Assembly (NCBI RefSeq): GCF_014205015.1
Contig: NZ_JACHMO010000001.1
Coordinates: forward strand, 9,176,001-9,240,000
Length of the DNA: 64,000 nt
From: Saccharothrix ecbatanensis
GTDB taxonomy: Bacteria; Actinomycetota; Actinomycetes; Mycobacteriales; Pseudonocardiaceae
Direction: 5' to 3'
A program made the position numbers and the translations under genes. Below, in pieces: positions 5,030 through 48,994 of the stretch (its first letter is position 1; each line of letters opens with the position of its first letter). The notes under the pieces are model-generated. The model searched no databases. It saw only the letters and a list, made by a program, of their open reading frames with translations, and was not told the DNA's origin.

Positions 5030-6736
5030 ATGGCCCGCAGTAACGTGCGACTCATGTCGACCTCCTCCTCCGCCGGCGTGCACGGCATCAGCAACCAGTT
5101 CGTAGCCGACTACGTGGCGGCGGACCCGCTGATCGCGACGTTCATCGGCGTGCCCGGTCACGACGACCGGCTGACCGACTACTCGCCGGAGGGTCACGCC
5201 GCCCGCAAGGAGCTGGCACAGCGCGCGCTCGCCGCCGTCAACGCGGCCGAACCCGCGGACAAGTCCGAAGCCGACGCCAAAGCCGTGTTCACGGAGCGGA
5301 TCGGCCTGGAGGTCGAGCTGTACGAAGCCGGCCTGATGGAGGGCAGGCTCAACGTCATCGCCAGCCCCGTGCAGTCGATGCGCGAGGTGTTCGACCAGAT
5401 GCCCACCGAGACGGCCGACGACTGGGCCGTGATCGCCAAGCGGCTCATCGCCGTGCCGGACGCGGTGGCGAACCTGCGAGCGGGCCTCGCGTACGCCGCG
5501 GACAAGAACCGGTCGGCGGCGTTGCGGCAGGTCACGCGGGTCGCCGAGCAGTGCGACACGTGGGCGGGCCGTGGCGGCCAGTCGTCGTTCTTCGCCACCC
5601 TGATCGCCGACGCACCCGCGGACGGCGCGCTGCGCACCGAGCTGGAGGCGGGCGCGAAGGCCGCCGCCGAGGCGTACGGCGACCTGGCCGCGTTCCTGCG
5701 CGACGACCTCGCGCCGAAGGCGCCGAAGAAGGACGCGGTCGGCGAGGACGTCTACCGGCTCCAGTCCCGCTACTTCACCGGCTCCCGCTTCGACCTGGCC
5801 GAGGCCTACGCGTGGGGCTGGGAGGAGTTCACCCGCATCGAGACCGAGATGAAGCAGGTGGCGGACCGGATCAAGCCGGGCGCCACGCTCGCCGAGGCCG
5901 CCGCCGCGCTGGACGCGAACCCGCGTTACCTGGTGCACGGCAAGGACGGCCTCCAGTCGTGGATGCAGGAGCTGTCCGACAAGGCGCTGCTGGACGTGCG
6001 CGGCGTGCACTTCGAGCTGCCGGACGAGCTGATGAAGCTGGAGTGCCGCATCGCGCCGCCCGGTGGTGGCGTCGGCGCGTACTACAGCGGTCCCACGCCG
6101 GACTTCACCCGACCGGGCCGCATGTGGTGGTCCGTGCCGGACGACAAGGAGGAGTTCTCCACCTGGCGCGAGGTGTCGACCGTCTACCACGAGGGCGTGC
6201 CCGGCCACCACCTCCAGATCGCCACGGCGGTCTACCAGGCGGAGAAGCTGAACGAGTTCCAGCGGCTGCTGTGCTGGGTGTCCGGCCACGGCGAGGGCTG
6301 GGCCCTGTACGCCGAGCGGCTGATGCGCGAGCTCGGCTACCTGGAGGACGACGGCGACCTGCTGGGCATGCTCGACGCGCACCTGTTCCGCGCCGCCCGC
6401 GTCATCATCGACATCGGCATGCACCTGGAGCTGGAGATCCCCCGCGGCACCGGGTTCCACGAGGGCGAGCGGTGGACGCCGGACCTGGGCCTGGAGTTCA
6501 TGCTCACCCGGACCATCACCGACGCGGCGCACGTGAAGGACGAGATCGACCGCTACCTGGGCTGGCCCGGCCAGGCGCCGTCGTACAAGCTCGGCGAACG
6601 GCTGTGGCTGGCGGCCCGCGAAGACGCCCGTACCCGGCATGGTTCCGAGTTCGACCTCAAGCGTTTTCACAAGGAAGCCTTGGAGATGGGGGCCATGGGG
6701 CTGGACACTCTTCGTGAGCGGCTCGCGGAGCTCTGA
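5030..6736 (+). CDS. DUF885 family metallopeptidase-like protein
   Basis: A 568-residue protein of the DUF885 family, widespread in actinobacteria and distantly related to M32/M3-type zinc peptidases. The zinc-binding motif HEGVPGHH is present at about residue 388, with a downstream GHGEGWALYAERLM that would supply the third ligand. There is no signal peptide, so it is probably cytoplasmic. GGAGGG lies only 2 nt before ATG 5030, so the real start may be GTG 5045 or ATG 5054 (MSTSSSAG). A 12-bp hairpin follows the stop codon. The substrate is unknown. Confidence 0.85.
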   Translation: MARSNVRLMSTSSSAGVHGISNQFVADYVAADPLIATFIGVPGHDDRLTDYSPEGHAARKELAQRALAAVNAAEPADKSEADAKAVFTERIGLEVELYEAGLMEGRLNVIASPVQSMREVFDQMPTETADDWAVIAKRLIAVPDAVANLRAGLAYAADKNRSAALRQVTRVAEQCDTWAGRGGQSSFFATLIADAPADGALRTELEAGAKAAAEAYGDLAAFLRDDLAPKAPKKDAVGEDVYRLQSRYFTGSRFDLAEAYAWGWEEFTRIETEMKQVADRIKPGATLAEAAAALDANPRYLVHGKDGLQSWMQELSDKALLDVRGVHFELPDELMKLECRIAPPGGGVGAYYSGPTPDFTRPGRMWWSVPDDKEEFSTWREVSTVYHEGVPGHHLQIATAVYQAEKLNEFQRLLCWVSGHGEGWALYAERLMRELGYLEDDGDLLGMLDAHLFRAARVIIDIGMHLELEIPRGTGFHEGERWTPDLGLEFMLTRTITDAAHVKDEIDRYLGWPGQAPSYKLGERLWLAAREDARTRHGSEFDLKRFHKEALEMGAMGLDTLRERLAEL

Positions 6737-8176: not shown

Positions 8177-8737
8177 CTAGGTGACCGGCAGGGTGCGGCC
8201 CAGCACGGCGAACGGCCGGGGGTCGCCGGTGAACTGGTAGTGCCGCAGCACGTCCACGAAACCCATCCGCCGGTACAGCCGCCACGCCTTGCTCGGACCC
8301 TCCGGAGTGGACAGCAGCACCCGTGAACTGGGCACGCCGGCCAGCAGGTTCCGCAGCAGCTGCTCACCGATGCCCCGGCTCTGCGCGCGCGGCAGGACGT
8401 GGAGTTCGGTCAGCTCGAAGTAGTCGCGCATCCACTCCTCTACCGCGTTCGGCCCGGCGACCATGGTCAGCCCGTGCCGCACCTGCTCGTGCCACCACTG
8501 GCCGACCGAGCCGCGGTAGCCGTAGCCGATGCCGACCAGCTCGTCCTGCTCTCCCAACGCCACCACGCACCGCCAGCCCTCGCGCAGCATGTGCGCCAAC
8601 CACATGGGCGCGCGCTGCTCGGCCGTGCCGGGCGGGTAGTCCATCGCGCTCACGTAGAGCGCGAGCGCCTCGTCCAACCGGGAGTTCAGCTCACGCGAGG
8701 ACAGCGTGACGATCCGCTGCGACGGCGCGGCGGTCAC
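8177..8737 (-). CDS. GNAT family N-acetyltransferase
   Basis: A 186-residue acetyltransferase. The acetyl-CoA binding loop is RAQSRGIGEQLLRNLL (motif A), followed by the beta-bulge strand and the C-terminal AWRLYRRMGF signature. The GTG start at 8737 overlaps the stop of the upstream YbaK gene (GTGA), so the two genes form an operon and are likely translationally coupled. The last bases, CCGGTCACCT plus stop, are repeated immediately downstream. The acceptor substrate is unknown. Confidence 0.85.
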   Translation of the reverse strand: MTAAPSQRIVTLSSRELNSRLDEALALYVSAMDYPPGTAEQRAPMWLAHMLREGWRCVVALGEQDELVGIGYGYRGSVGQWWHEQVRHGLTMVAGPNAVEEWMRDYFELTELHVLPRAQSRGIGEQLLRNLLAGVPSSRVLLSTPEGPSKAWRLYRRMGFVDVLRHYQFTGDPRPFAVLGRTLPVT

Positions 8738-9234
8738 CGGGCGACCTCGGCGGGTGTGCCACCGGTCAGGTCGACCAGACCCGCGTAAGTGGTGGGGTAG
8801 AGCGCGTGCGGGTGCCCGGCGGCGGCCCACACCACGTCGTGCCGCTCCAGCGCGACGTCGACGAACGTGCGGATCGGCGCGGGGTGGCCCACCGGGGAGA
8901 CGCCGCCGATGACCTGGCCGGTGTGCTCACGCACGAACGCGGGGGTGGCCCGTTCGATCGAGTCGGCGCCGGCCAGCGCGGCGAGCTTGTCGGTGTCCGC
9001 CCGGTGCGCGCCGGACGTGAGCACGAGCAGTGGCGCGGCGACACCGTCGCGGACCGCGGCGAACACCAGGCTGTTCGCGATCGCGCCGACCGGCACGCCC
9101 ACCGCGTCGGCCGCTTCGGCGGCGGTGCGAACGGCGTCGGCCAGCACGCGAATCCCGTTCGCCGCCTCGTGATGGCCCGCCTCGGACAGTGCGGCGGCCA
9201 CCTTGCGGATGCCGGGGTGGTCGAGTGCGCTCAC
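8734..9234 (-). CDS. YbaK/ProX-type aminoacyl-tRNA deacylase
   Basis: A 166-residue YbaK-fold protein, the usual size for stand-alone editing domains. Family features are VGVPVGAIANSLVF, LVLTSGAHRADTDKLA with the conserved Lys, and GVSPVGHPAPIRTFVD. Such proteins hydrolyse misacylated tRNAs such as Cys-tRNA(Pro) or Ala-tRNA(Pro). I chose GTG 9234 because upstream in-frame sequence enters the promoter and LexA-box region of the divergent HEPN gene. It is followed by the overlapping GNAT gene. Confidence 0.85.
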   Translation of the reverse strand: MSALDHPGIRKVAAALSEAGHHEAANGIRVLADAVRTAAEAADAVGVPVGAIANSLVFAAVRDGVAAPLLVLTSGAHRADTDKLAALAGADSIERATPAFVREHTGQVIGGVSPVGHPAPIRTFVDVALERHDVVWAAAGHPHALYPTTYAGLVDLTGGTPAEVAR

Positions 9235-9261: not shown

Positions 9262-9291
9262 TTGAGGAGTTCCGGGCCGGCAGGTTACTCT
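9262..9291 (+). promoter_or_regulatory. Promoter of the HEPN operon
   Basis: TTGAGG (9262-9267) and TACTCT (9286-9291) are separated by 18 nt and look like -35 and -10 elements. The predicted start of transcription, near 9298, falls inside the palindrome at 9296-9319, an arrangement expected for repression. Confidence 0.55.
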
Positions 9292-9295
9292 GGTC

Positions 9296-9319
9296 TTGCT
9301 CGAACATTTGTTCGAGCAA
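9296..9319. promoter_or_regulatory. LexA (SOS) box on the HEPN operon promoter
   Basis: A perfect 24-nt palindrome (11-nt arms, TT centre) whose core TCGAACATTTGTTCGA fits the Bacillus/mycobacterial-type LexA consensus TCGAAC-N4-GTTCGA exactly. It overlaps the predicted transcription start of the HEPN gene, 98 nt upstream of its ATG. The same motif occurs at lexA and recA in this window. Confidence 0.82.
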
Positions 9320-9322
9320 TGC

Positions 9323-9359
9323 CTTGGTGGTGGGGCGGGGGAAGCGCCCCACCACCAAG
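9323..9359 (+). other. 15-bp leader hairpin upstream of the HEPN gene
   Basis: A perfect 15-bp inverted repeat (arm CTTGGTGGTGGGGCG at 9323-9337, partner at 9345-9359) with a 7-nt loop, GGGGAAG. It lies just after the LexA box, inside the predicted 5' leader of the HEPN mRNA. It could act as an attenuator, a stability element or a terminator of leaky transcription. Confidence 0.75.
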
Positions 9360-9416
9360 TGCCGCCGTCTCCCCGCGGCGGTCGTCGCTGTCCCGACGCC
9401 GCGAGGAGGCCGCGAT

Positions 9417-9830
9417 ATGACTCAGACCTTCCCCCGCCGCATTCCCCTCCCACTGCCACCGGCGTCGGCCGTGACCCTGCTCGGTCAGGCGCGCGAGTGC
9501 CTGGCCGAGGCCGAACGGGACCCGTTGCCGCACACCCGCTTCGCCACGGCCTACCTGGCCGCGATGCGGGCCGCGGCGGCCGTGCTGGCGGCCCGCGGCC
9601 GACCCCACCGGGGCCGGGCCAGGCCGACCAGCGTGTGGCTCCTGCTGTCCTCCCTCGCGCCGGAACTGCGCGAGTGGGCCGCGTTCTTCGCCGAGTGCTC
9701 GGCGACGCGCGCGGCCGTGTTGGCGGGCATCACCAGGCAGGTCACCCCGCGGGCAGCCGACGACCTGGTGCGCCAAGCGGCGCAGTTCACCGAGTTGGTC
9801 GACGAGATCATGTACGAGGACGGACTGTGA
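9417..9830 (+). CDS. SAV_6107-type HEPN domain protein, LexA-box controlled
   Basis: A 137-residue helical protein resembling the actinobacterial SAV_6107 family of HEPN-like proteins. The first helix carries LGQARECLAEAERDPLPHTRFATAYLAAMRAAAA in part (quoted: LLGQARECLAEAERD), followed by a conserved SVWLLLSSLAPELREWAAFF-like block. It lacks an obvious RxxxxH RNase motif, so catalytic activity is uncertain. ATG 9417 has a good SD (GAGGAGG). Its stop overlaps the start of the next gene (GTGA), indicating coupling. Upstream are a promoter, a perfect LexA box and a strong hairpin, so damage induction is likely. Function unknown. Confidence 0.78.
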   Translation: MTQTFPRRIPLPLPPASAVTLLGQARECLAEAERDPLPHTRFATAYLAAMRAAAAVLAARGRPHRGRARPTSVWLLLSSLAPELREWAAFFAECSATRAAVLAGITRQVTPRAADDLVRQAAQFTELVDEIMYEDGL

Positions 9831-10591
9831 GCAGGGGACTGGTCGCCTACGACCGCCTGATCGACGTAGTGGAGCAGGAAGCCGAGCGCCTGGCGGCGTC
9901 GGCCGAAGGACAGCGCCCGGAACGCCAGGTGCCCGCGTGCCCGGGACTCAACCTCGGGGAGACGGCGAGGCACGTGGGCAGCACGTACCGGATGGTGTCG
10001 ACGTGGCTGAGGGAAGGCAGCCAACCGCTGGTGTGGCAGCAGGACCCGGAGAAGGGGCAGACGCTGCCCGAGTACGTCCGGTCGGGTGTGCCGCCGTTGG
10101 TTCGGGCATTGCGGGCTCGTGAGCCGGACGACCCGTGCGAGACGTGGTGGCCCGCCGAGCGCAACCACAACTTCTGGGCGCGACGGCTGGCGCACGAGTC
10201 GACCGTGCACCGGATGGACGTCCAGTCGGCGGTCGGGCTGCCGGTGGACCCGGTGGACGACGACGTGGCCGAGGACGGTGTGGACGAGATCCTGTCGCTG
10301 TGGCTGGGACACCGGCTGGACCTCCTCGGTGTGCGCGGCACCCGGCAGGGGACCGTGGCGCTCCGTGCCGGGAACAAGGTGTGGCTCGCGACGACCGGAC
10401 CGGACCCGGCCGTGGCACGGCTGGTCGACGACGAGGAAGCGGCGTCGGCGGACGGCGAGGTGACCGGCACTCCGATGCAGCTGTACCGCTGGCTGTGGGG
10501 CCGCATCCCGGACCGCGACCTGCCACCGCCGACCGGTGACCACGACGCGATCGCCCAGCTGTGGGCGTTGCTGAGGCTGGCCACCAAGTAG
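9827..10591 (+). CDS. Mycothiol-dependent maleylpyruvate isomerase (DinB-fold) family protein
   Basis: A 254-residue protein of the actinobacterial family typified by mycothiol-dependent maleylpyruvate isomerase. Metal-ligand positions are visible as GETARHVGSTYRMV (His) and LAHESTVHRMDV (Glu, His). The N-terminal DinB-like helical bundle is followed by a smaller C-terminal domain ending LWALLRLATK. Members perform mycothiol-linked isomerisation, transfer or detoxification. The GTG start overlaps the HEPN stop by 4 nt, so it is translated with the HEPN gene from the same LexA-box promoter. The last codons and stop are repeated three times in a row. Substrate unknown. Confidence 0.82.
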   Translation: MSRGLVAYDRLIDVVEQEAERLAASAEGQRPERQVPACPGLNLGETARHVGSTYRMVSTWLREGSQPLVWQQDPEKGQTLPEYVRSGVPPLVRALRAREPDDPCETWWPAERNHNFWARRLAHESTVHRMDVQSAVGLPVDPVDDDVAEDGVDEILSLWLGHRLDLLGVRGTRQGTVALRAGNKVWLATTGPDPAVARLVDDEEAASADGEVTGTPMQLYRWLWGRIPDRDLPPPTGDHDAIAQLWALLRLATK

Positions 10592-10624
10592 CCGGACCAC
10601 CAAGTAGCCGGCCACCAAGTAGAC
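10579..10624 (+). repeat. Triple echo of the 3' end of the upstream gene
   Basis: Three near-identical 15-16 nt units with core CCACCAAGTAG (10579-10593, 10594-10609, 10610-10624). The first contains the real stop codon (ACC AAG TAG); the other two follow it. Confidence 0.85.
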
Positions 10625-10662
10625 GTGCGTCCGCCGCCGGGTAACCCGACCCCCCACCCGGC

Positions 10663-10733
10663 GGCGGGCGCACCCGACCCGCGCTCGACGGCGGGCGCAC
10701 CCGACCCGCGCTCGACGGCGGGCGCACCCGACC
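10663..10733. repeat. 27-nt tandem repeat, 2.6 copies
   Basis: Exact 27-nt units at 10663-10689 and 10690-10716, then 17 nt of a third. Core: GGCGGGCGCACCCGACC. It lies between the DinB-fold gene and the dienelactone hydrolase gene, 25 nt before the latter's start. Confidence 0.85.
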
Positions 10734-10757
10734 GCACGGCCCGGTAGCTTTCCGGCG

Positions 10758-30999: not shown

Positions 31000-31015
31000 T
31001 CGAACACCTGTTCGG
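31000..31015. promoter_or_regulatory. LexA box of recA
   Basis: TCGAACACCTGTTCGG matches TCGAAC-N4-GTTCGA with one change in the last base. TACACT follows at 31017-31022 as a -10 candidate, so the box lies between the -35 and -10 positions. It is 135 nt before the recA ATG. Confidence 0.85.
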
Positions 31016-48107: not shown

Positions 48108-48123
48108 TCGAACCTGTGTTCGA
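48108..48123. promoter_or_regulatory. LexA box 1 in the chiZ/lexA region
   Basis: TCGAACCTGTGTTCGA, a perfect match to TCGAAC-N4-GTTCGA, 21 nt upstream of the chiZ-like start. Confidence 0.92.
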
Positions 48124-48139
48124 TCGAACGTCCGTGCGA
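48124..48139. promoter_or_regulatory. LexA box 2, directly abutting box 1
   Basis: TCGAACGTCCGTGCGA differs from the consensus by one base and starts immediately after box 1, so two LexA dimers could bind side by side at a 16-nt phase. Confidence 0.7.
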
Positions 48140-48189
48140 ATGTGTACCACTTCATCGGGCATAATCGCTACGACACGCCGAGGTTTACT

Positions 48190-48205
48190 TCGAACAGGTG
48201 TTTGA
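48190..48205. promoter_or_regulatory. LexA box 3 on the lexA side
   Basis: TCGAACAGGTGTTTGA matches TCGAAC-N4-GTTCGA with one mismatch, 88 nt upstream of the lexA start. It probably mediates lexA autoregulation. Confidence 0.82.
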
Positions 48206-48292: not shown

Positions 48293-48994
48293 GTGGCACG
48301 CAAGACAAACGAAGACCTGCGCACCGCCGATGTGCCCTCCGCGCCCGAACCGGCGGACATCGCGGGCAACGCCGGGCTCACCCTGCGTCAGCGCAAGGTG
48401 CTCGACGTGATCCGCGACTGGCTGGACCGGTTCGGCTACCCGCCCAGCGTGCGCGAGATCGGGGAGGCGGTCGGCCTGACCTCCACCTCCTCGGTCGCCC
48501 ACCAGCTGCGCGCGTTGGAGCGGAAGGGCTACCTGCGTCGCGATCCGAACCGGCCGCGCGCGGTGGGTGTGCTGCCGGCCGAGATCGTCACCGGCCTGGA
48601 CCCGTCGTCCAAGCCGACGCCCGCCTACGTGCCGATGCTGGGTCGCATCGCGGCCGGTGGGCCGATCCTGGCGGAAGAGGCCATCGAGGACGTGTTCCCG
48701 CTGCCGCGCGAGATCGTCGGCGAGGGCGACGTGTTCCTGCTGAAGGTCGTGGGTGACTCGATGGTGGACGCCGCCATCACCGACGGCGACTGGGTCGTCG
48801 TCCGGCAGCAGCCCACGGCGGACAACGGCGAGGTGGTGGCCGCGATGATCGACGGCGAGGCCACCGTGAAGTCGTTCAAGCGCAAGGAAGACGGTCACGT
48901 GTGGCTGATGCCGCACAACGTCGCCTACCAGCCGATCCCGGGTGACGAGGCGACGATCCTGGGCAAGGTCGTGGCGGTCCTGCGCAGGCTCTAG
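48293..48994 (+). CDS. lexA: SOS repressor LexA
   Basis: A 233-residue LexA. N-terminal winged helix [20 protein letters not shown] and [20 protein letters not shown]; cleavage site region [13 protein letters not shown] (Ala-Gly); catalytic Ser in [11 protein letters not shown] and Lys in [10 protein letters not shown]. RecA filaments trigger self-cleavage and derepression of SOS genes. GTG 48293 has GAGGAGGAA about 5 nt upstream. Divergent from the chiZ-like gene across three LexA boxes. Confidence 0.98.

Follow-up and report, generated by a model that had tools for sequence, protein, structure and literature searches.

The locus described here raises the question of what a HEPN protein and a putative thiol-linked enzyme might do in the SOS response, their two overlapping genes lying behind a perfect LexA box in Saccharothrix ecbatanensis. 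The stretch of DNA analysed, hereafter the window, has 64,000 nucleotides and covers positions 9176001-9240000 of a 9.69 Mb single-contig genome. We find that the box is conserved upstream of related HEPN genes, that it is followed by a leader hairpin whose stem covaries around a GGGGAAG loop, and that in some other actinomycetes the HEPN gene adjoins genes for translesion synthesis (TLS) polymerases.

A LexA box at the start of the operon

The operon consists of the following features:

9262..9291, + strand: promoter hexamers (TTGAGG 9262-9267, TACTCT 9286-9291, spacer 18), read from the sequence
9300..9315, no strand assigned: perfect LexA box, within a 24-nt interrupted palindrome (9296-9319)
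9323..9359, + strand: leader hairpin P1 (15-bp stem 9323-9337/9345-9359, loop GGGGAAG 9338-9344)
9362..9381, + strand: leader hairpin P2 (stem 9362-9367/9376-9381, loop UCUCCCCG)
9403..9409, + strand: ribosome-binding site GAGGAGG of the HEPN gene, read from the sequence
9417..9830, + strand: HEPN protein of the SAV_6107 type, 137 aa (PF18726)
9827..10591, + strand: MDMPI/TIGR03083 (DinB-fold) protein, 254 aa, with a 4-nt GTGA overlap with HEPN

The initial annotation had placed a perfect LexA box on the predicted start point of a promoter of the form TTGAGG-N18-TACTCT. The box is confirmed as TCGAACATTTGTTCGA, nested in TTGCTCGAACA-TT-TGTTCGAGCAA, and its position is that of the presumed start point of the HEPN promoter. 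The promoter itself is less clear-cut: both hexamers are present and kept in Saccharothrix, the first being identical across 7 aligned sequences (window included) and the second fitting TAnnCT, but a scan with the strict sigma-70 consensus lists no promoter at this place. In the leader alignment, the corresponding Lentzea hexamers are TTGAAG and TACGCT.

The window contains one other perfect TCGAAC-N4-GTTCGA site, and this precedes lexA:

48108..48205, no strand assigned: LexA boxes before lexA (48108 perfect; 48124 and 48190 with one mismatch each)
48293..48994, + strand: lexA, the presumed repressor (TIGR00498, 248 bits)

When up to two mismatches are allowed, 9 LexA-like sites are found in the window where 3.25 would be expected, and in the whole genome there are 114 sites with at most one mismatch, compared to 19 for the pattern read backwards. 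Sixteen boxes in the genome are perfect, and among those identified are the ones in front of lexA and the ImuA'-ImuB-DnaE2 cassette (mutasome). A LexA-like site with one mismatch, TCGAACACCTGTTCGG, is also present at 31000-31015 of the window.

Conservation of the box upstream of HEPN genes

A set of 125 PF18726 loci (59 of them named) was collected and reduced to 102 by dropping 23 in which the 200-nt domain start was identical to that of another; the resulting set is dominated by Saccharothrix and Pseudonocardiaceae, and the closest named homologues of the window HEPN are from Saccharothrix. Within 700 bp upstream of the gene, a perfect box occurs in 77 of the 102 loci and a box with at most one mismatch in 85, while each of six control palindromes of the same form is found at 0-1 loci at the latter stringency. 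With two mismatches allowed, the number rises to 92, and one control palindrome then scores 6. All but one of the named loci (58/59) have the box. The perfect box of L137 lies 714 bp upstream of HEPN, with a small gene in between, and was therefore missed by the 700-bp count. A scan of this kind had been suggested by the initial annotation, and its outcome upholds the box, the Streptomyces-like loci being the exception. Because the box is kept upstream of orthologues, SOS control is strongly supported, and we regard it as almost certain that the operon is under such control.

Regulation of this family by LexA may already be implicit in earlier work. Corynebacterium glutamicum, which served as a control genome, has a PF18726 gene. 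At four of the loci (L138, L139, L141, L144) HEPN, DUF3040-like and MraZ-like genes follow in this order, the names of the two neighbours being our presumption from their sequences. The C. glutamicum gene cg2381 is situated near mraZ (cg2378) and, judged by gene order and the distance to mraZ, is probably the HEPN orthologue. In the part of the C. glutamicum regulon study available to us, cg2381 is a member of the LexA regulon and is induced by ciprofloxacin (M 3.86; PMC5055667). If cg2381 is indeed the PF18726 gene, LexA control of SAV_6107 HEPN proteins is probably contained in that regulon. The suggestion that the operon is an undescribed damage-response module thus has to be modified as regards its regulation; it stands insofar as the literature searched contained no paper linking SAV_6107 HEPN to LexA or ImuB, and none that mentions both HEPN and ImuB.

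A covarying hairpin in the leader

Conservation is higher in the 5' leader than in the HEPN gene behind it: the leader is nearly identical among Saccharothrix, even in S. obliqua, where HEPN is 67% identical. Its computed fold has an energy of -69.3 kcal/mol (z -4.94), and none of 200 shuffles was as good. In the minimum-energy fold, the ribosome-binding site of HEPN pairs with the C-rich P2 segment.

Hairpin P1 shows two-sided changes at 9 of its 15 stem pairs in an alignment of 15 leaders, with 99.6% of cells paired. When 29 hairpins from HEPN and non-HEPN sites are compared, such changes are seen at 13 of 14 pairs (138 cells), and the covariation is 0.913 as against 0.213 (sd 0.024) in shuffles, a value reached in 0 of 500, and 0.09-0.18 in slid controls. 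From this set L237 (8 of 13 pairs) was dropped, and L224, L226, L231-L233 and L238-L240 were left out; stems of the P1 type are less regular in L231-L233 and L238-L240. The searches were seeded by GGGGAAG, which makes the loop invariant by construction, but not the pairing of the stem. GGGGAAG flanked by arms with at least 10 of 14 paired positions occurs up to 800 bp upstream of HEPN in 67 of the 102 loci, and in 52 of the 59 named ones. This count requires stem pairing, as does the following one. A GGGGAAG loop closed by at least 11 of 12 pairs occurs 48 times in 1,169,239 bases from 95 HEPN loci, and 43 of these hairpins are found no more than 110 nt 3' of a box that has one mismatch or none. 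In the same loci none of eight unrelated loop heptamers gives more than one hairpin, and the reverse complement of GGGGAAG, CTTCCCC, gives 39. These counts show the specificity of the loop, not its frequency.

P1 is highly stable, GC-rich and located at the 5' end of the transcript, properties that would also suit a transcription attenuator or a DNA element such as an obstacle to read-through or a protein site. Terminators of actinobacteria can do without a U run, which likewise counts for such an interpretation. However, a terminator scan detected no terminator-like site at the leader, and a terminator was therefore rejected; moreover, the stem varies freely, with compensation, around a constant loop, and none of the eight other heptamers gave more than one such hairpin. 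We thus consider an attenuator or DNA element unlikely, and P1 very probably a real, functional RNA.

The leader is also not a known Rfam element. A search of the window with Rfam 15 (4227 families, including 6C) gave no match near the gathering score for the leader, those to FsrA, COG3860 and C4 being far below it, and the leaders of 6 other loci had no Rfam match at E 0.5.

Distribution of the hairpin and loss of the HEPN gene

A covariance model of the leader RNA (R1) matched at E 1.3e-4 or better in all 24 genomes of the same genus that were searched. Among 200 Pseudonocardiaceae genomes, 148 have an R1 match at E 0.01 and 180 have PF18726. Of the 150 R1 matches listed, 123 have HEPN on their own strand at most 2 kb downstream, 3 are at other sites in HEPN genomes and 7 in genomes with no PF18726 match; the other 17 were left unplaced, the HEPN site not being among those listed. 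Of the 3 at other sites, L218 lies behind a box with one mismatch and L217 behind a site with two, each before another gene, and the weak match L219 is in an ImuA' leader. Among the 7 without PF18726, the match in G402 (E 0.003) is accompanied by neither box nor GGGGAAG and is probably due to chance. A locus titled Rhodococcus rhodnii (L073) has the gene order, box and leader of Kibdelosporangium aridum (L069), and probably stems from a mislabelled or mixed assembly.

In several genomes box and hairpin are found where the HEPN gene has been lost or reduced. HEPN is untraceable by six-frame search in G004, G012 and G014, while box, P1 and MDMPI remain; comparison of these three shows matched differences in the P1 stem (a G-C pair replaced by A-U; a G and a C absent). 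G006 and G021 retain only a weak match to the C-terminus of HEPN (E 1.6e-4 and 1.2e-3) and G353 a stub of 74 codons, and G366, G399 and G360 have the box (with one mismatch in G366), P1 and MDMPI and no PF18726 match.

The hairpin also occurs before unrelated genes. The pattern GAACNNNNGTTCNA-N10-40-GGGGAAGC, which requires no stem, is present in 131 of the 200 genomes, compared to 2 control hits. We fetched 18 matches that were away from obvious HEPN sites. Two of them, L238 and L240, are HEPN loci after all, and L239 is separated from a HEPN gene 2.4 kb downstream by a gene on the opposite strand. Twelve of the other 15 (L223-L230, L234-L237) have the same 7-nt loop directly behind the box, and in 10 of these a same-strand open reading frame of 51-199 codons was called no further than 900 nt away, sometimes as part of a series of small genes resembling mobile elements. 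Two copies of box plus GGGGAAG (L225, L226) are found 38 kb apart in G472. The remaining three (L231-L233) have the less regular stems and no close same-strand reading frame called; in L232 and L233 the box-hairpin precedes a tRNA-Tyr gene on the opposite strand, and in L232 also what we take to be a yajQ-like gene. A perfect box and a stable hairpin with the related loop GAGAGGAAG are likewise situated before an opposite-strand tRNA-Tyr gene in S. ecbatanensis itself (6922120 onwards; L009 1501-1600), with no reading frame called, and represent a candidate SOS small RNA.

These arrangements raise the possibility that P1 itself is the functional product, an SOS-induced small RNA, and that HEPN, MDMPI and the other genes merely happen to lie downstream. 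The retention of box and P1, with matched stem changes, in the three genomes with untraceable HEPN, the variety of small genes behind the box-hairpin and the lack of a close same-strand reading frame in L231-L233 would all agree with this. At HEPN loci, however, the gene follows closely upon the leader, and MDMPI is still downstream in the HEPN-less genomes examined, so that we consider a free-standing small RNA quite unlikely and continue to regard P1 as part of a leader. It is not a general leader of SOS genes: a search 120 nt to both sides of the genome's 16 perfect boxes finds GGGGAAG at the HEPN box alone, and this idea was rejected.

The HEPN protein

The window protein scores 119 bits against PF18726 (cut-off 27.2), which secures the assignment to the SAV_6107 type made by the initial annotation, and it has the four-helix HEPN fold. 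The same annotation had hinted at an RNase or toxin. On this assumption, HEPN would be induced by SOS and cut RNA to slow growth, with MDMPI as a detoxifying or antitoxin partner. The Rx4-6H catalytic motif is not found at its usual place in the window protein. Its sole Rx4-6H-like stretch, RDPLPH at residue 34, is in the turn between helices 1 and 2, which we take to differ from the usual place, and is shared only by the window protein, L046 and L047 in our sequence list. The helix-2 position of the catalytic histidine holds a tyrosine (RFATAY). The family is tabulated as having no conserved Rx4-6H in the part of the survey available to us (Anantharaman 2013, PMC3710099), although other members may have a non-canonical catalytic site. 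No MNT nucleotidyltransferase or other known antitoxin partner adjoins the window HEPN, its neighbours being MDMPI, YbaK and GNAT genes, and the partners of HEPN vary between families, unlike those of a toxin-antitoxin pair. On both the motif and the partner test the toxin hint is not borne out, and we reject it as improbable.

Association with translesion polymerases

Genes were called with a codon-usage caller, which detected HEPN in 86 of the 95 loci (9 had no call); family names of neighbours were profile-tested in a few loci and extended by BLAST clusters. A TLS gene is among the next four same-strand genes in 20 of these 86 loci. The clearest cases are L080, L083 and L084 (Virgisporangium, Actinorhabdospora and Stackebrandtia), where a LexA box and HEPN precede ImuA', ImuB and DnaE2. 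The NF058630 profile confirmed ImuA' in L080 and L083, and for L080 ImuB (IMS) and DnaE2 (NF004225, 1129.6 bits, cut-off 939) were confirmed as well. HEPN occurs together with mutasome genes, but with gaps, in L093, L095, L096, L098 and L099, and L152 and L156 also have the cassette; in L095, L096 and L099 (Phytohabitans) ImuA' is close behind HEPN and ImuB comes later, while in L093 the gap is 1.9 kb.

In other loci different polymerase genes take this position. HEPN overlaps a DnaE2-like gene by 4 nt in L100, a metagenome-assembled genome of Micrococcales, and is directly followed by one in L137, L140, L143, L159 and L163. With 535-703 bits on each, these six proteins stay below the cut-offs of both the DnaE1 and the DnaE2 NCBIfam models, so that "DnaE2-like" denotes resemblance only. 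Four further loci (L153, L154, L158, L164) have a Y-family polymerase and what is presumably a methyltransferase-like gene after HEPN. A small gene is often inserted between box and HEPN, and matched PF20114 (DUF6504) in three of four cases tested (L097, L100 and L103, not L079). Since it lies between the LexA box and HEPN, this DUF6504 gene is probably an SOS gene too.

By position the window HEPN is not part of the mutasome, as the cassette of the genome (~6742080-6748133) is located behind its own perfect LexA box, 2.4 Mb from the HEPN operon. Because HEPN adjoins TLS genes behind the same box elsewhere and the usual Rx4-6H site is missing, we read it as a putative TLS accessory rather than an RNase toxin, and lean slightly towards a genuine link.

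The second gene and the local neighbourhood

The product of the second gene scores 50 bits for MDMPI_N (cut-off 24.2) and 55.5 bits for TIGR03083 (cut-off 50), while MDMPI_C stays below its cut-off (25.8 bits, 29.5 required). These scores and the coordinates agree with the GTGA overlap and the DinB-fold, mycothiol-family assignment already proposed for the gene. MDMPI is directly downstream of HEPN in 41 of the 59 named loci, 31 of them with the 4-nt overlap, and residues H123 and H128 are kept in 44 of 44 MDMPI sequences (window included). A sequence search of the PDB gave no relative at E 0.01. A thiol-linked enzyme is plausible from the family membership. Three imperfect repeats, 15-16 nt apart, span the MDMPI stop codon (10576-10625) and contain CCACCAAG, which is also present in the 3' arm of P1; downstream of the operon (10625-10740) an inverted repeat and three tandem GGCGGGCGCACCCGACC units possibly mark a terminator region.

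On the other side of the box lies a gene that could share it:

8734..9234, - strand: YbaK/tRNA_edit gene, divergent (PF04073)

Its start codon is 66 bp from the box, and YbaK or GNAT is divergent in many HEPN loci, so that the box might serve these genes with HEPN as a bystander. We regard this as extremely unlikely. Loci with GNAT alone or a different gene in the divergent position, or with a co-directional upstream gene, still have the box with HEPN, and the covarying leader is on the HEPN side. As box and leader both track HEPN, a switch of the divergent genes was rejected, and we continue to assign the box to the HEPN operon.

Possible pairing partners of the P1 loop

Many other genera have CUUCCCC in the P2 loop. 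This heptamer is exactly complementary to the P1 loop and usually begins 30-31 nt from the start of the latter; Saccharothrix has UCUCCCC. The computed P1-P2 loop pairing is -11.2 kcal/mol with the exact complement and -8.7 in Saccharothrix. In the P2 stem, two-sided change is limited to 1 of 6 pairs, and 84.3% of cells are paired.

Hairpins of the P2 type were also seen in two mutasome leaders, which do not amount to a survey. The ImuA' leader of S. ecbatanensis (6748118, L008, minus strand) has CGCCG-ACTTCCCA-CGGCG 15 nt behind the box, and that of G349 (L219, reverse complement, ~6363-6450) has CCGCCG-GCTTCCCCA-CGGCGG behind a perfect box, the letters of the G349 hairpin being those of P2 in several HEPN leaders. 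By computation, the loop of the S. ecbatanensis ImuA' leader has two possible partners, P1 (-9.8) and the ribosome-binding site of its own gene (-10.5).

A third potential partner is the 6C small RNA. According to the available portions of the respective reports, C-rich loops of B11/6C pair with G tracts in 5' UTRs of M. abscessus (PMC10470900), and 6C rises about two-fold under mitomycin C in C. glutamicum (PMC6789036). A single 6C copy is present in the genome (RF01066, 7779706-7779780); its loops have a computed pairing of only 4-5 nt with P1 (-9.0 to -9.5 kcal/mol), and there is no LexA-like site within 2 mismatches near this gene. In 13 HEPN genomes from other families of the same order (G024-G029, G032, G034-G039), 6 have both 6C and P1, 3 only 6C, 4 neither and none P1 alone, a tally that ignores relatedness and whose rule is broken by G334 and G335.

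Loop-loop pairing is favoured as the mode of action because the stem changes freely around the loop, P2 offers an exact complement in many genera and 6C/B11 acts on G tracts in M. abscessus; it is nevertheless a tentative proposal.

Proposed mechanism and points against it

Upon DNA damage, LexA would cleave itself and leave the operator. The leader would then be transcribed, and the P1 loop might pair with a C-rich loop, either of its own P2 or possibly of the 6C small RNA, and so set how well the ribosome-binding site of HEPN is used. Translation of HEPN would be followed, by translational coupling through the GTGA overlap, by that of the MDMPI-like enzyme. HEPN would most likely act as a non-catalytic binding subunit that aids the SOS translesion polymerases, either ImuA'-ImuB-DnaE2 or those of the Y-family. 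The MDMPI-like protein, probably metal-dependent and thiol-linked, could remove an electrophile formed along with the damage, a role that we consider rather doubtful. Taken as a whole, an SOS operon with a covarying leader and HEPN as TLS helper appears reasonably probable.

A number of observations speak against parts of this account. Regarding SOS control, none of six Streptomyces-like HEPN loci has the box at up to one mismatch, the best having two (such group labels are taken from size and gene order); two loci of genus g18 have a box with 2 mismatches, and six distant homologues (L146-L151) have no good box, with three or more. HEPN is gone or reduced in several relatives, and so is dispensable. 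Regarding polymerases, MDMPI is present in 43 of the 86 loci where HEPN was called, and another 23 lack both MDMPI and a TLS gene, so that the link is one by comparison, not by position in the window; a separate LexA box with one mismatch precedes ImuB in L095, L096, L098 (Micromonospora) and L099, where HEPN thus need not share a transcript with ImuB-DnaE2. Regarding the loops, the P2-type segment is missing in many HEPN loci and pairs for only 5 nt with P1 in Saccharothrix, and P1-P2 complementarity shows no covariation, as six of the seven loop pairs never vary and the one that does only fails; a kissing loop proven by covariation was rejected for this reason. The invariance of the loops means that covariation cannot test 6C as a partner either, and, as G334 and G335 have P1 yet no 6C RNA at E 0.001, 6C was rejected as a certain partner. 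Overexpression of 6C in Mycobacterium tuberculosis did not raise DNA repair genes, according to the text available (PMC6789036).

We tentatively suggest that the GGGGAAG hairpin may represent a new class of regulatory RNA tied to LexA operators in actinomycetes, a possible second, RNA-level switch for chromosomal and mobile SOS genes that would operate by loop-loop pairing (with its own P2, a hairpin of the mutasome message or 6C) and can outlive its gene. In this locus a widely conserved SOS gene of actinomycetes, linked through gene order to the error-prone polymerases responsible for mutation after damage, is joined to a covarying RNA behind LexA operators, which would bring post-transcriptional control into a response mostly treated as transcriptional.

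Comparison with known systems

The operator is of the same type as in the LexA/SOS regulons of actinobacteria, determined by ChIP-seq in Streptomyces venezuelae (PMC9380542) and described for C. glutamicum (PMC5055667). Table 1 of the S. venezuelae paper, within the part available, names no HEPN gene, and the accessible text of both accounts does not mention a leader RNA or a link to the mutasome. The VIA-align list contained no closer functional analogue.

HEPN-MNT (HepT/MntA) toxin-antitoxin systems differ in that the SAV_6107 family has no conserved Rx4-6H and the window HEPN no MNT partner. The mycothiol-dependent maleylpyruvate isomerases (TIGR03083) resemble the second protein in the score above cut-off and in the invariant H123 and H128, but its MDMPI_C score is below cut-off and its use of mycothiol is only putative. 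The leader itself is not a 6C RNA, having no match near the gathering score, and would pair with 6C over just 4-5 nt; the likeness to 6C/B11 (RF01066) resides in the pairing of C-rich loops with G tracts, as described in the available part of that work (PMC10470900). The window HEPN, 2.4 Mb from the ImuA'-ImuB-DnaE2 cassette, also differs from a mutasome gene by position, and ImuB has its own box in L095, L096, L098 and L099, whereas in three loci of Micromonosporales and Glycomycetales (L080, L083, L084) HEPN stands directly before this cassette, behind a LexA box.

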